Shown here piece by piece: positions 37,797 to 57,170 of a DNA stretch of 64,000 nt. The notes below the pieces were generated by a model. The model did not search any database. It saw only the letters and a list, made by a program, of their open reading frames with translations, and had not been told where the DNA came from. The stretch is from a virus. A program made the translations under genes and the position numbers. Location: positions 42,908 through 106,907 of the IMG/VR virus record IMGVR_UViG_3300034417_000033. The stretch is one strand, 5' to 3'. Position 1 is the first letter of the stretch; every line of letters begins with the position of its first letter.

Positions 37797-38603
37797 CTAG
37801 CGATTTTGTTTGCAAGCAATGCGTTTTTGTATAATCACTTTCTTTAAATTCGCAACTGGCAATGCCACTTTCTTATCTAAATCATACTGTGTTGCTATTG
37901 CAAATCTAATACCAGTTAATAACTCAACTTCATTTACAGTAACTTGATATTTACTCAGATCGTTGCCAGTTGCCGTTTGTGGCATAATAAATGCGTATGC
38001 TTTTTTAGATCCTAAGTCAGCTACAATTTTATAAAATGCATCTGGAACAACAACATTATTTGGTCCTATTGTTTTAGACTCATCGCTGTACACTGGGCCT
38101 ACATAAATTAAAAAGTTATTATTTGATTCTACTGCCCAAGCTCTAATGTATGTCTCTAACAGTTTCCACGTGCCACGGTTTAATCTTGGAGTTTGCGGCG
38201 CCATATTTGTAAGTAGAAAACTTTGATCTTCTGTTTCTAAACTGTATGCTTGGTCTCCTGCAGGAATCTGATGGCCCATATCATATCCACTTTTTGCATA
38301 ATCAATAAGTTCTGCTCTGTCACCTTTTCGCAAACTATTGTCCGGAGCAAAATTATTTTTTCTAATTGCGCACCCAATGGAACTTTTTCCATCAGACACA
38401 TATGCTGACCAAATAGGGAGTTTTGCCTTAACATCATTAAGTGTAGCATACCCAGTTCTGCAAATTAACGTGCCTGATTTTCCAGACGGCAGACCAAACG
38501 GCAAGTGACTATTGCAATTGTTTGCGGGAAGTGGATCGGGCTGTTGCCAGGCGGTCGAAACGGAAGAAAATGCGAGTGCAAACAATAAACATAAGTATTT
38601 CAT
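37797..38603 (-). CDS. Exported DNA/RNA non-specific endonuclease (NUC family)
   Basis: 268 residues with a signal peptide (MKYLCLLFALAFSSVSTA). The NUC active site is present as DMGHQIPAGD (His111; usually DRGH) with the partner motif NMAPQTPRLNRGTWKLLE (Asn133, Asn142, Glu150). Several Cys residues could form disulfides after export. It probably degrades nucleic acid in the periplasm or outside the cell, for example incoming rival DNA. It is inserted between tube gene 19 and sheath gene 18. A GGTAAATA element lies 7 bases before the ATG. The Arg-to-Met change in DRGH is tolerated in some family members. Confidence 0.86.
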   Translation of the reverse strand: MKYLCLLFALAFSSVSTAWQQPDPLPANNCNSHLPFGLPSGKSGTLICRTGYATLNDVKAKLPIWSAYVSDGKSSIGCAIRKNNFAPDNSLRKGDRAELIDYAKSGYDMGHQIPAGDQAYSLETEDQSFLLTNMAPQTPRLNRGTWKLLETYIRAWAVESNNNFLIYVGPVYSDESKTIGPNNVVVPDAFYKIVADLGSKKAYAFIMPQTATGNDLSKYQVTVNEVELLTGIRFAIATQYDLDKKVALPVANLKKVIIQKRIACKQNR

Positions 38604-38672: not shown

Positions 38673-41414
38673 TTAGCCAGCTAGGCTAGATCCAGTATTT
38701 TTAATACGGATCGGAATATAAATAAACTCGATCGCTTTTACTGGTTGGATTGCGATATCAATCCAAAGTTCGTTTCTATCAATACGATCTGGTGTGTTGT
38801 TGCTCTTATCGCACACAACCAAGAAGTCATACAAGCCACGCAATGTTACTAGGCTGCTTAACAAAGCATCATATGCAGACTTAGCATTGCCACGAGTAAT
38901 ATCATCGTTTGGTTCAAACAAGAAGCCATGGGATAATATATCTGCTTGGTAACGGATGAAGTTCAACAATCTTGCAACGTTGATTCTGTCCATTGCTGAT
39001 TCTGCAGAAGCACGAGTCTTCTGACCCCAAAGCACAATACCGCTGTTTGGAATAACACGGATTGGGTTGATGTTGTTAGTATAAAGAACATCACGCAAGC
39101 CTTGGTTCAAGCTAACTGCTGCAAATTCACCTTCAGCATTTACATAACCTACTGACGAAGCATTAGATACAACACCACGATTTAAACCAGCTGGAGCAAA
39201 CCATTGGTATGCAACTTGGTCATTATACGCAAGTGATCTAAGCGTCATGTGCGAAGCTGGAACAACAACGTTGGTTCCGTCTAAGTTAGTTGAGAAACCA
39301 CTTGGGTAGTAAATGCCCAAATACTCGTCTGCTGTGATCAAACCTTCATCGCCAGTTTCAGCAGCGTTGAATGCGTTTGTTGCCCAGTTGTGCAAATCTG
39401 TACCGTTAGCAGCTAAGTGGAACGGAGTATCACCAAGAACAAATGCAGTTTCTTTTCTGTCAATGTTCAATGAAACCATGTCGTCCATAAGCTCTGGATA
39501 ACCAGGAGTAGCAATCAAATTGTAGAATACTGATTCTGATCTGATGTCTTCGTTGTTTGCAATAGCTGCTTGAAGAGCTTTAACAACAATTTTCTTAACA
39601 GCAGCGTCGCCAGTTACTAAAGAACCATCAACTGCATTGCCGCTTTCGGAAACCCAACGATCGCCTACTAATTCGCCTTCAAATGTATAAGCTACAGTCC
39701 AACGCTTAACGTTTCTTGTAGAGTAACGTGTGTTGAATAACAACATTCCTGTTGGGTATGCAAGTGCATCAGGTGCATCAGCGTCAAGCACTGTTGCGGC
39801 GCTGCCAACAAACGGATTAGGAACAGTTGGTCTTGCATCAGCAAAAATTACACCTTTTGGAGAGGATTGATCTGTGTTATCAACAAGTCTCCAGCCAGTA
39901 GCAGTTTTAACATTAATGATTGGATAAGATGCAGTATCTGAAGTGTCAACCCATACGTCGCCAGTAGCTGCGCCGATCGGAGCACTTGGGGATACAACTG
40001 CAGGTTTTGCCAATTCTTTCCAAGCTCCAGCAGAAGCAATCATAATGTCAACTTTGTATGAAGGATCATACCAAAGTGTGCCATCTTCTAAATCGCCTGT
40101 TGGTTGTACATTGGACGCTTCATAAACAAGATTTTCCCAGTTGCTATATCTTCCGTCTGGGATTCCAATTGGGTCAGCTAAATCGTTAACAATAACCATG
40201 CTATTGCCAACCGAGTTCTCGAAAACCAGTTTATTGTCTATAACAATTGCAGTAATTTCGGCTGTGTTAAATCCAGTCCAAGCGTTAATTGCATCAGCAG
40301 CTTCTTGTGCTGTGGAAGTAGATGTCAAGCCAAGGGTTGCCAAATCAATAAGAATTGGAACGCCAGTGCTATCTGATATTCCAGCTTTACCAACACCGTA
40401 ATTCGTTAGTGTGGAACCCGGAGTATGCACAACTGTTCCGCCGTTGTGTATAAAGATTGGGTTTTGGTAAATGGTTAATACGTCTGTATCTCTATCAAGT
40501 CTGTAATTATAGTTAACATATGTTGAACCTGCTGTTAATGCAGACCCATATCCAATAATAGCTGCGTCGCCAGTGGCATAAGTTGGTGCAAGTACGTTAA
40601 CAAAAGATCCAGCTGTAGAATCATAATAACTAACATCAAAAGACAACTCTCTTAAATTAATCCAAAAATCGCCAGTAGATAATGCAGTGATATTATCTTC
40701 TCTAAGTGTTGGGTAAACATTTGAATATTGGATATCAATTCCTGGACCAGCATTAAAATCAGTTCCAGTCTTATCCATAACCTGCCAACCGGACGCAAAC
40801 TTTTTATAAATGGTGTTTTCTGTTCTAAAGTTTCCGTTGCCGTCTTCCACTCTACCTACAGTCACTGCGTGATTATAGTTGGATGGAACGCCCGATGGCT
40901 TAGCGTTTGAGTCTACTTCAGTAGTAACATAAAGAGGAACTTTGTTCCATGTATCAGTTGCGCCGTCAAACATGTAAAGGCCAAAACTGGATTTTGCCAA
41001 GTTCATCCAGAATGTACCTGGATTAGGATTAGCAACTGGTGGAACAGTTCTTGGTGCTAACTGACTTGTGTCAACGTCTGCTCTTAATACATAAGAAGCA
41101 TTAGAAATTCCTAAGAATGAATGATCAGCTAACAAGCCGTATTCGTTCAATGAATAACCGTGAAGTGAATTTCCTCCAACGGAGTAAAAGTTTGGTGTAC
41201 CGAAAGTTTGAAGCAACTCTCTTTGAGAAGCAACTAACCACAGTTTGCCAGCGTTTGCTTTTGTAGTACCAATTGCAATCGCGTCGCCTGCAGGTGTAAG
41301 TTTATCTTGCGCTGTTGCAATAATAACGAGAGGCACAGTCCCTGGTCCGGAACTTACATAAAATGACTCGTCTGTTACTGTAATAGCGGTTCCTGGTGAA
41401 ATAAGTGTCGCCAC
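38673..41414 (-). CDS. 18: Tail sheath protein, T4 gp18 family, with inserted modules
   Basis: 913 residues (T4 gp18 659), GTG start with AAAAGGAGG upstream. The N-terminus (PGTAITVTDESFYVSSGPGT) and C-terminal third (SGIVLWGQKTRASAESAMDR, then INVARLLNFIRYQA, then ELWIDIAIQPVKAIEFIYI) are typical sheath. The extra length comes from inserted modules recurring as NPGTFWMNL, STGDFWINL, EDGTLWYDP and ATGDVWVDT. It contracts to drive the tube through the envelope. An inverted repeat covers its ribosome-binding site. Confidence 0.95.
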   Translation of the reverse strand: MATLISPGTAITVTDESFYVSSGPGTVPLVIIATAQDKLTPAGDAIAIGTTKANAGKLWLVASQRELLQTFGTPNFYSVGGNSLHGYSLNEYGLLADHSFLGISNASYVLRADVDTSQLAPRTVPPVANPNPGTFWMNLAKSSFGLYMFDGATDTWNKVPLYVTTEVDSNAKPSGVPSNYNHAVTVGRVEDGNGNFRTENTIYKKFASGWQVMDKTGTDFNAGPGIDIQYSNVYPTLREDNITALSTGDFWINLRELSFDVSYYDSTAGSFVNVLAPTYATGDAAIIGYGSALTAGSTYVNYNYRLDRDTDVLTIYQNPIFIHNGGTVVHTPGSTLTNYGVGKAGISDSTGVPILIDLATLGLTSTSTAQEAADAINAWTGFNTAEITAIVIDNKLVFENSVGNSMVIVNDLADPIGIPDGRYSNWENLVYEASNVQPTGDLEDGTLWYDPSYKVDIMIASAGAWKELAKPAVVSPSAPIGAATGDVWVDTSDTASYPIINVKTATGWRLVDNTDQSSPKGVIFADARPTVPNPFVGSAATVLDADAPDALAYPTGMLLFNTRYSTRNVKRWTVAYTFEGELVGDRWVSESGNAVDGSLVTGDAAVKKIVVKALQAAIANNEDIRSESVFYNLIATPGYPELMDDMVSLNIDRKETAFVLGDTPFHLAANGTDLHNWATNAFNAAETGDEGLITADEYLGIYYPSGFSTNLDGTNVVVPASHMTLRSLAYNDQVAYQWFAPAGLNRGVVSNASSVGYVNAEGEFAAVSLNQGLRDVLYTNNINPIRVIPNSGIVLWGQKTRASAESAMDRINVARLLNFIRYQADILSHGFLFEPNDDITRGNAKSAYDALLSSLVTLRGLYDFLVVCDKSNNTPDRIDRNELWIDIAIQPVKAIEFIYIPIRIKNTGSSLAG

Positions 41415-41494
41415 TTTAAAACCTCCTTTTGATTTTAGCTAAAATAGTTTCTATACTTATTTATCGTTATCTTAGGAAAAGGAGGTGTTTTAAA
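41415..41494 (-). promoter_or_regulatory. RBS-sequestering inverted repeat in the sheath leader
   Basis: Minus-strand AAAAGGAGGTTTTAAA (41415-41430), which contains the ribosome-binding site, is complementary to an upstream TTTAAAACACCTCCTTTT (41477-41494), with 16 paired bases and a 2-base bulge. The late element at 41458-41465 lies in the loop, so late transcripts would lack the upstream arm. Confidence 0.78.
41458..41465 (-). promoter_or_regulatory. Late promoter element GATAAATA for the sheath gene
   Basis: Minus-strand GATAAATA 43 bases before the GTG at 41414, inside the loop of the RBS-sequestering inverted repeat. Confidence 0.72.
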
Positions 41495-41500
41495 CCGGGG

Positions 41501-41508
41501 TATTTATG
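41501..41508 (-). promoter_or_regulatory. Possible second late element CATAAATA
   Basis: Minus-strand CATAAATA 86 bases before the sheath start and upstream of the whole inverted repeat. A transcript from here would carry both arms. Confidence 0.4.
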
Positions 41509-41513
41509 ACATT

Positions 41514-42149
41514 TTAAGAAATAATTTTAGCTATAGAAAAAACCTGCTGTTTTAGATCATCTAGTGTCCCAGTGTTTGTTATTACATGGTCTGTCGGCAC
41601 AGCAAGCCAAGCCCATTCGCTGAAATGAACATCCGCGTATTTTTCTTCCATTGCAGCTTTTGCAATCTCGTTACCATTGACAGCTAGTGTTGCAATCTCT
41701 TCCCACTCAGGAGGATGCTTTCCTTTTACACGAATTATTTTGCCGCCCAAAGAACGAATGTGCTGCATTTCATTTGGAAATCTTGCATCACTAATTATGA
41801 TATTTTTATTACTAGATTCCATGAATCGCCGCTCAAATGTTAAGAGCCACATATCAGGATTAAAATGATCTCGAAGGGTATCTGTACCAATTAATTGCAT
41901 TGCTTTTCGTGGTGTGAATTTAGGAATCCCTAATTTATCAGACCACCACTTGTCAACAGTATTGCGCCATTCTCTGCTTTCAGGTGTGTCGCCTTCTAGT
42001 AAACTACGTTCCCAGCCAAACAAAGGCGCAACAATATCTTTTAGTGTTGCTGCAAAGCTGTCTCGCTCGTAGTTAAAGTTGTCTACAAAGAAATTTGCGG
42101 CAGTGTCTTTGCCGCTACCAATAAAACCAGAAATTGCAAGAAGTGTCAT
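41514..42149 (-). CDS. 1: Deoxynucleoside monophosphate kinase, T4 gp1 family
   Basis: 211 residues (T4 gp1 241). Walker A GFIGSGKDT (8-16), the DSFAATLKDIVAPLFGW lid region and the NIIISDARFPNEM motif are typical. It phosphorylates dNMPs to dNDPs for DNA synthesis. It has its own early-type promoter (TTGATA-17-TATACT), which fits an enzyme needed before the surrounding late genes. AAGGATAGCGT precedes the ATG. Confidence 0.9.
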   Translation of the reverse strand: MTLLAISGFIGSGKDTAANFFVDNFNYERDSFAATLKDIVAPLFGWERSLLEGDTPESREWRNTVDKWWSDKLGIPKFTPRKAMQLIGTDTLRDHFNPDMWLLTFERRFMESSNKNIIISDARFPNEMQHIRSLGGKIIRVKGKHPPEWEEIATLAVNGNEIAKAAMEEKYADVHFSEWAWLAVPTDHVITNTGTLDDLKQQVFSIAKIIS

Positions 42150-42177
42150 ACGCTATCCTTTTATTTTTATAAGAAGC

Positions 42178-42206
42178 AGTATAACACAACTTGCAACAAA
42201 TATCAA
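42178..42206 (-). promoter_or_regulatory. Sigma70-like promoter (TTGATA-17-TATACT) for gene 1
   Basis: TTGATA (42201-42206) and TATACT (42178-42183) on the minus strand, spacing 17. The TGA stop of the upstream virion gene lies within TTGATA. Confidence 0.78.
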
Positions 42207-42958
42207 CCAATAATAAAAGGCATGCCTCTATCAGAAGTAACAAATTGCAAAATCTCTTCCTCGAGCCTTTGCATTTCTGCGAGGCCTTCTTGTTTCAGTG
42301 CATCGCCATTTAATGTTACGTTTCCGTTCGGTCCTGGCAATCCGCTTGTAATTTTGCTTCTTGCTTCACCCAACATAAACTTAGACTGTGCTAACGCATA
42401 ATCTCTAATCCACGGTCCAGAATATGTGCCTGTAATAAGATCGTCTTCTGCCTTTGCCAAGTATACAGTAACCATCACTGTTTCTTCACCTTCAGGACGA
42501 CGCAGTAATGTTAACTTGTGGTCTGACTCATTCCAAATAAAGTTAATTTCAGAAGAGAAAACTCTTGCCAATGTTTCTTTATATTCGCTAAATAATTCCC
42601 ATGTTGCAAGCCCGCCAGTTTGACCCCATTGCAATAAGAAGTAATTGCTGAATGCTGCCTCAAATGGATCGAAGTTGATGCCACCGCCACCAATTGTCAC
42701 ACCTACGCCGCGGCGATAAATTTTTCGGATTTCTTGAACGTTTTCAGGAAGGTTATAAACGTTCTGATCTTCCTGAAGATTCATAAACATAGTATCTTCA
42801 TTTGTGGATCCATCAGAACGCTGTCTGTATCTTTGTATTGCTAGGGTAATTGCCAAATCTAAGTGTTCTGGGTCAAGCTCAACTTCTACCATGCCGATAC
42901 CAAGCATAAGCTGGATTTGTTTTTTGAGCGTGTGCCTTGCAGAAGTCATTGCTGTCAT
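42203..42958 (-). CDS. Conserved virion structural protein (neck/tail region)
   Basis: 251 residues. LGIGMVEVELDPEHLDLAIT, IRKIYRRGVGVTIGGGG, FDPFEAAFSNYFLLQWGQTG, WIRDYALAQSKFMLGEARSK and LNGDALKQEGLAEMQRLEEE form a pattern conserved in virion proteins of marine T4-like phages. A GATAAATA element lies 20 bases upstream. Position next to sheath genes suggests a neck or tail-terminus role, which is not proven. Confidence 0.78.
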   Translation of the reverse strand: MTAMTSARHTLKKQIQLMLGIGMVEVELDPEHLDLAITLAIQRYRQRSDGSTNEDTMFMNLQEDQNVYNLPENVQEIRKIYRRGVGVTIGGGGINFDPFEAAFSNYFLLQWGQTGGLATWELFSEYKETLARVFSSEINFIWNESDHKLTLLRRPEGEETVMVTVYLAKAEDDLITGTYSGPWIRDYALAQSKFMLGEARSKITSGLPGPNGNVTLNGDALKQEGLAEMQRLEEEILQFVTSDRGMPFIIG

Positions 42959-56158: not shown

Positions 56159-57118
56159 TCAATCGGCTCGGGTTGGACTTTGTTTTAAAATATCGCATAA
56201 CTCATCTAAAGATTGTTGACAATCAACAATTAATTTAGTCGCTTGTTTCTTAAGTTTGCTTATATTATCATCAGATACATCGTCCATAGAATCAGACGCA
56301 ATATTCAATCTCGTTTGGAATCTAAACATCTTAACATTTGGAACTTGACTAAGTTGATAATCAGTAACTGCACTTTGGCCGTCAAACATAATATCAAGCA
56401 AAGGAACTACCCACTGTGCATCTCCCCAATCTTTTGCAGATTCATATGGTATGGATCTAGTGTTCTGTCCAGTTCCGATAGAAACAACTAACAGATCATC
56501 ATCGGGGAATAATTTTTTTGCTTCTATACTAGCAGACAAAGATGGATTGTTAACGTATACTCCGCCATCAATCAAAATACGATCTAACCCATTAACTTTT
56601 ACTTTTGCGGGTTCGAAGTATGTTGGTGCTGCTGACGTACCTCTTGCTGCTTGCCATAACAAAGTATTTTTAGTGTCAGCTTTCCAGCTTTTTAGAAAAA
56701 GAGGCGTTCTGTTTTCTATGTCATAGGTAGTAACGAAAGTTTTAGTATGGCATGTATTAAGTGTTGCCGACTCTGTGAAGAAACGTTTTAATACTTTTAC
56801 AATACCTTCGTCTGAATATTTTTCAGACACGATGCCGCCGATGGAAAAAATGCTTCGCAATGCGCTTCTGGAAAAGATGTCTTTTCCATGATCTTTATAC
56901 ATATCAAACACATCATCAGCAGTATATTTCAATACGCCTTTTGAATCAGTAGCAGTCAATGCTAAAGACAGTATGCCGCCTGTTGACGTTCCTGCTATCA
57001 AGTCAAAACAATCAGCAATTCTTTTGCCTGTTTGTTTTTCAATATATGCCAACACTAATGCAGGCAGGGCACCTTTTATGCCTCCACCGTCAATAGAAAG
57101 TATTGTACGCAATGCCAT
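56159..57118 (-). CDS. Patatin-like phospholipase
   Basis: 319 residues from the ATG at 57118 with GGAG 6 bases upstream. Oxyanion-hole GGGIKG (11-16), nucleophile elbow GTSTG (Ser45) and the catalytic DGG (Asp184, IDGGVYVNNP) give a complete Ser-Asp dyad. Such enzymes cut membrane phospholipids; bacterial relatives serve in CBASS defence. Here the GATAAATA element points to late expression, fitting lysis or membrane remodelling. A two-span membrane protein follows. Confidence 0.9.
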   Translation of the reverse strand: MALRTILSIDGGGIKGALPALVLAYIEKQTGKRIADCFDLIAGTSTGGILSLALTATDSKGVLKYTADDVFDMYKDHGKDIFSRSALRSIFSIGGIVSEKYSDEGIVKVLKRFFTESATLNTCHTKTFVTTYDIENRTPLFLKSWKADTKNTLLWQAARGTSAAPTYFEPAKVKVNGLDRILIDGGVYVNNPSLSASIEAKKLFPDDDLLVVSIGTGQNTRSIPYESAKDWGDAQWVVPLLDIMFDGQSAVTDYQLSQVPNVKMFRFQTRLNIASDSMDDVSDDNISKLKKQATKLIVDCQQSLDELCDILKQSPTRAD

Positions 57119-57140
57119 TTTAATCTCCAATTCTTAAACA

Positions 57141-57148
57141 TATTTATC
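57141..57148 (-). promoter_or_regulatory. Late promoter element GATAAATA
   Basis: Minus-strand GATAAATA 22 bases before the patatin ATG at 57118. Confidence 0.68.
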
Positions 57149-57170
57149 AAGAAACTGGAAATCATTTACG

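Follow-up and report, generated by a model that had tools for sequence, protein, structure and literature searches.

The tail sheath gene of this virus, a large T4-like jumbo phage, is probably preceded by a promoter-gated translation lock of the kind found at gene e of phage T4, in which one arm of an inverted repeat would cover the Shine-Dalgarno region and a late promoter element lies between the two arms. The analyzed stretch of DNA (the window) comprises 64,000 nucleotides and covers positions 42908-106907 of a viral record 106,907 bases long; a simple script supplied its gene starts, its promoters are motif matches, and T4 served as the analogy for placing transcription starts. The order of genes on the minus strand is head-tail adaptor, dNMP (deoxynucleoside monophosphate) kinase, sheath, nuclease and tail tube genes (Table 1). 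The sheath protein shares 52% amino acid identity over its full length with the sheath of PA5oct, a jumbo phage of Pseudomonas; the corresponding figure for sheaths of the RaK2/121Q group is about 36%. The nuclease gene between the sheath and tail tube genes encodes a DNA/RNA non-specific endonuclease (PF01223; window 37797-38603), and PA5oct has a homing endonuclease gene at this place.

According to the proposed mechanism, early RNA would read through from the kinase gene into the sheath gene and would carry both arms, and pairing of arm 1 with the Shine-Dalgarno region would keep the sheath gene silent. Late transcription, if fired from GATAAATA, would begin about 25 nt past arm 1, and the resulting RNA would have a free Shine-Dalgarno from which the sheath could be made.

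Table 1. Positions of the sheath leader elements and of related features (window coordinates unless another sequence is named).
Feature	Position	Strand	Remarks
Tail sheath gene	38673..41414	-	913 aa; GTG start (41414-41412); PHROG tail sheath, E 3.7e-242
Arm 2, sheath Shine-Dalgarno region, AAAAGGAGGTTTTAAA	41415..41430	-	Complementary to arm 1
Late element GATAAATA	41458..41465	-	Between the arms; start predicted at ~41452 by analogy with T4 spacing
Arm 1 (anti-RBS), TTTAAAACACCTCCTTTT	41477..41494	-	Would be missing from RNA begun at the late promoter
CATAAATA	41501..41508	-	Lies 5' of both arms; unlikely to be a working promoter; a transcript from it would begin at ~41495, with arm 1 whole
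dNMP kinase gene	41514..42149	-	Directly upstream of sheath; PHROG 1.4e-46; Pfam DNMK
Competing segment, kinase gene 3' end	41517..41542	-	Can pair with 41452-41427; minor state by prediction
Sigma70-type promoter before kinase gene	42178..42206	-	TTGATA-17-TATACT with TG extension; 10/12 match
Patatin-like gene, RBS arm	57121..57137	-	Predicted pairing partner of 57147..57164
Patatin-like gene, late element GATAAATA	57141..57148	-	Between the arms; motif match
Patatin-like gene, anti-RBS arm	57147..57164	-	Ends at the late element; second case, z -4.1
DHFR gene	L091:9209-9766 (same record)		Sigma70-like TTGACT-17-TACACT; 11-nt anti-RBS arm in spacer
Further gene	L091:2711-3190 (same record)		Sigma70-like TTGACG-17-TAAAAT; 9-nt anti-RBS arm in spacer
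T4 (NC_000866) gene starts	regB 62740, alc 136275, alt.-3 123032, nrdC.8 53885, denV 65355	-	Anti-RBS arms in promoter spacer

The first-pass annotation had described the two arms as complementary over 16 bases, with a 2-base bulge and a spacing of about 46 nt, and had placed a late element between them. Sequence and coordinates proved correct: the bulge is CA, 46 nt separate the arms, and GATAAATA stands at 41465-41458. RNAduplex forms 15 of the 16 arm pairs (-14.2 kcal/mol). Pairing of the sheath ribosome-binding site (RBS) with the 75-nt segment ahead of the predicted start reaches -20.9 kcal/mol, a value attained by 2 of 20,000 dinucleotide shuffles of those 75 nt. A comparison set of 173 other pre-promoter regions, drawn from four phage records, contains none that pairs as well, and the z relative to foreign regions of this type is -5.9. 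The native arm site is the best partner of the sheath RBS on the same strand in the whole 107-kb record, and, given the record's total of about 160 genes, such pairing would be expected about 0.02 times genome-wide. The z-score of the whole-region fold is modest (-1.44), the signal residing in RBS-specific pairing. The complementarity of the sheath arms exceeds chance. The shuffles weigh against the idea that the inverted repeat arose by chance in a leader that is A+T-rich and has a Shine-Dalgarno of unusual strength, the sheath gene having a plain late promoter and no control of translation. That idea draws on the majority of sampled sheath relatives, which have no lock, and on a genome-wide count of RBS complements of at least 9 bp that is only mildly in excess (5 genes versus 2.05 expected), a tally of perfect complements being too blunt a measure. 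It is also opposed by the placing of the promoter, which separates the two arms in the record's strongest cases and likewise in RaK2-like phages, six genomes of which retain the hairpin; we regard this idea as unlikely.

Folding predictions point the same way as the pairing statistics. The mean unpaired probability of the Shine-Dalgarno is predicted to be 0.68 in the short, late-start RNA versus 0.006 in the long RNA with arm 1 at 37 C, and the long form is predicted to be closed at 20 and 25 C too. With arm 1 present, opening the Shine-Dalgarno is predicted to cost 11.4 kcal/mol instead of 4.0 (z 6.8, relative to the same RBS joined to foreign upstream regions); in the identical test, the cost at T4 gene e rises from 0.4 to 13.1 kcal/mol (z 5.7), so that the sheath effect is of the same order. 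The opening-energy test left the documented case of T4 soc undetected, and thus misses some cases. The start codon of the sheath gene is predicted to be paired in both RNA forms; in the short RNA, the GTG lies within a predicted small hairpin, AAGUG-GCGA-CACUU (window 41402-41416). Because the pairing beats the shuffles and the opening cost rises with arm 1 to the same order as in T4 e, the T4 logic put forward in the first-pass annotation, in which the late promoter separates an anti-RBS arm from the RBS, gains support from folding and statistics, and also from recurrence elsewhere.

When more of the upstream RNA is folded freely, the predicted opening cost falls to about 4-7 kcal/mol, as the stretch preceding the Shine-Dalgarno (41452-41427) then has an alternative partner in the 3' end of the kinase gene (41542-41517). 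This raises the question of a two-state leader, in which the kinase 3' end would free the Shine-Dalgarno unless the kinase is translated to its stop codon, making the silencing translation-dependent in the manner of an attenuator. Among 7106 overlapping 49-nt stretches of the window, 17 match the competing helix (-14.9 kcal/mol). This helix and the arm helix are mutually exclusive because the two would cross. It is predicted to be a minor state, however (0.002-0.20), and the kinase 3' segment is A+T-rich and partly palindromic; this reading is very unlikely. The arm helix stays the main predicted state despite the competitor (0.77-0.96), with a probability of 0.96 when the full-length RNA from the kinase promoter is folded. 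During translation of the kinase to its stop codon, the competing helix should matter little, since ribosomes would cover the kinase 3' segment.

The element GATAAATA appears, from its distribution, to be the late element of this lineage and the dominant form 5' of genes. PA5oct has 32 copies of GATAAATA versus 11 of a reversed control, and 20 of the 32 are near gene starts versus 1 of 25 copies of CATAAATA; in the present record, 9 of 19 copies of GATAAATA are at promoter position versus 1 of 6 of CATAAATA. The base preceding intergenic minus-strand ATAAATA sites in the record is G at 15, C at 3 and T at 1. An ATAAATA late motif has been predicted for phage CBB, which the same paper links with GAP32 (PMC5259590). 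PA5oct encodes a homologue of the late sigma factor (PHROG E 8e-82), and a late sigma factor of the gp55 kind was not found in this 107-kb fragment.

The first-pass annotation had named CATAAATA, upstream of both arms, as the source of the silent form. This does not agree with the rarity of CATAAATA at promoter positions, and the sigma70-type promoter of the kinase gene is a better and the most likely source. As the kinase gene has such a promoter, read-through from it is the best explanation of the silent RNA, and the promoter motif suggests that the kinase RNA would be early. The RBS of the kinase gene likewise has a 9-nt complement (CCTTTTATT/AATAAAAGG; window 42149-42220), with the sigma70-like promoter between the arms, a weaker case (z -2.1). 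A terminator scan gave no convincing terminator between the kinase promoter and the sheath gene. PA5oct has an intrinsic-terminator-like hairpin between the kinase gene and the late element, which would do the job of the lock by other means. Since the stem of the window is followed by UUUU, it could be asked whether it replaces the PA5oct terminator as a transcription attenuator, with RNA reading in from the kinase gene forming the stem and stopping at the U residues. Yet an intrinsic terminator has a compact, G+C-rich stem and a U run, whereas the sheath hairpin has a loop of 46 nt and just four U, was not reported by the terminator scan, and has the Shine-Dalgarno itself as the 3' arm of its stem. 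Attenuation of this kind is therefore highly improbable.

The RBS-hairpin mechanism is established for T4 e, soc, 49 and I-TevI (PMC3014915, PMC2988022). In the T4 gene e leader, early read-in RNA hides the RBS in a hairpin, and late RNA is without the 5' arm (PMC3014915). The sheath leader resembles this group in that read-in RNA would have a hidden RBS and the late promoter would exclude the 5' arm. It differs in that the gene encodes a major tail protein and the late element is GATAAATA, and it is known here from sequence and folding. The first-pass annotation had seen direct complementarity as a departure from T4, but the 5' arm complements the RBS in e and I-TevI too (PMC3014915, PMC2988022). 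What does differ is the geometry: the sheath 5' arm lies wholly upstream of the late element and the loop is 46 nt, whereas the late promoter of T4 e overlaps the 5' strand. The leaders of Aeh1 mobE and T4 segB likewise combine an RBS-sequestering hairpin with a nearby late promoter, although these are homing endonuclease genes and not a structural gene as here (PMC2988022).

No close relative was found, and a sheath search in bacterial genomes gave none that was confirmed. Among distant sheath leaders, the opening-energy z is 2.8 for L038, 3.8 for L040, 6.6 for L042, 2.6 for PA5oct, 2.5 for L026 and 2.5 for L010. In the L040 leader, the late element is itself part of the RBS-pairing arm. The PA5oct leader belongs to an orthologous gene and has GATAAATA in the same place with a weak anti-RBS arm of its own, but it differs from that of the window in its terminator-like hairpin before the late element and in an arm of unrelated sequence. 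The same test gave no lock in the best-sampled groups (L001/L005/L008/L012/L016, L017/L019/L030 and L014/L015), L010, which is akin to the L001-type group, being an exception. With lineages counted by eye, the opening-energy test gives a lock in 4 of the 7 sheath lineages, and the arms of these locks are unrelated. The first-pass annotation had looked to related phages for covariation between the arms; several relatives do have a lock of their own, but the arms of the window are not conserved. A lock may thus recur in function across sheath lineages without conservation of its arm sequence. In most of these relatives the sheath gene immediately follows the kinase gene; L038-L042 are exceptions. 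Sheath loci of the L001, L005 and L017 types have an opposite-strand GATAAATA that precedes the sheath GATAAATA by about 65 nt, a near-constant distance, and is near the end of the kinase gene. It is possibly an antisense late promoter, and it is absent from the window.

The same layout recurs within the record. In genes with a close upstream promoter motif, pairing between the region that the promoter would remove and the gene's own RBS was compared with pairing to the corresponding regions of other genes. A z below -2.5 was found in 4 of 40 genes of the record versus 0.66 expected, namely the sheath, patatin-like and DHFR genes and one more (Table 1). The patatin-like phospholipase gene occupies window 56159-57118; its relatives in the phage collection are limited to six records of Wolbachia phages, at ~42% identity, and one uncultured phage, and none was found in IMG/VR. 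When late promoters from eight phage records were pooled, 10 of 138 gave hits versus about 2.4 expected, and SPO1 gave 0 of 20. An Escherichia coli control yielded two hits, one of them mntH, whose repeat we take to be a regulator operator; with this assumption and only six promoters, the control is uninformative.

Beyond this record, PA5oct EST35_0209 has the layout of the sheath leader. The leader of RaK2 ORF155, from jumbo phages with a related sheath, resembles that of the window sheath in that the loop of its RBS hairpin contains GATAAATA, and this hairpin is kept in five orthologues (six genomes). Unlike in the sheath case, the arm sequence is conserved in the six genomes, and the gene is KTSC/DnaJ-like. 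The 121Q orthologue has one compensatory change from G-C to A-U. A single such pair, reached by 71 of 500 shuffles, does not establish covariation statistically; more weight falls on the retention of the pairing. A search of IMG/VR with ORF155 returned RaK2 itself and nothing else.

In T4, anti-RBS arms occur in the promoter spacer of the early genes regB, alc, alt.-3, nrdC.8 and denV. In five T4-like phage types whose regB arms differ, the predicted pairing of each arm with its own partner is -19 to -23 kcal/mol versus -4 to -17 with swapped partners; by these energies, the regB arms co-vary across the five types. No description of RBS arms at early promoters was found in the literature searched, most older T4 papers lying outside it. 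There is an even chance that RBS locks with a promoter in the loop are general, repeatedly evolved insulators of T4-like phages and T4-like jumbo phages, at late promoters and at early sigma70 promoters, where the arm is in the spacer. If so, only transcripts that start at a gene's own promoter would yield its protein, and read-through transcripts would be silent for that gene.

The sheath lock is well supported by these predictions, and its type of mechanism is already known from T4; the early-promoter pattern is the more novel lead, and the covarying regB arms make it directly testable in T4. With the sheath case, the control known from T4 lysozyme would reach a jumbo phage gene for a major structural protein. 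The case suggests that phages often set the timing of their late proteins twice, by the promoter and by the fold of the RNA.
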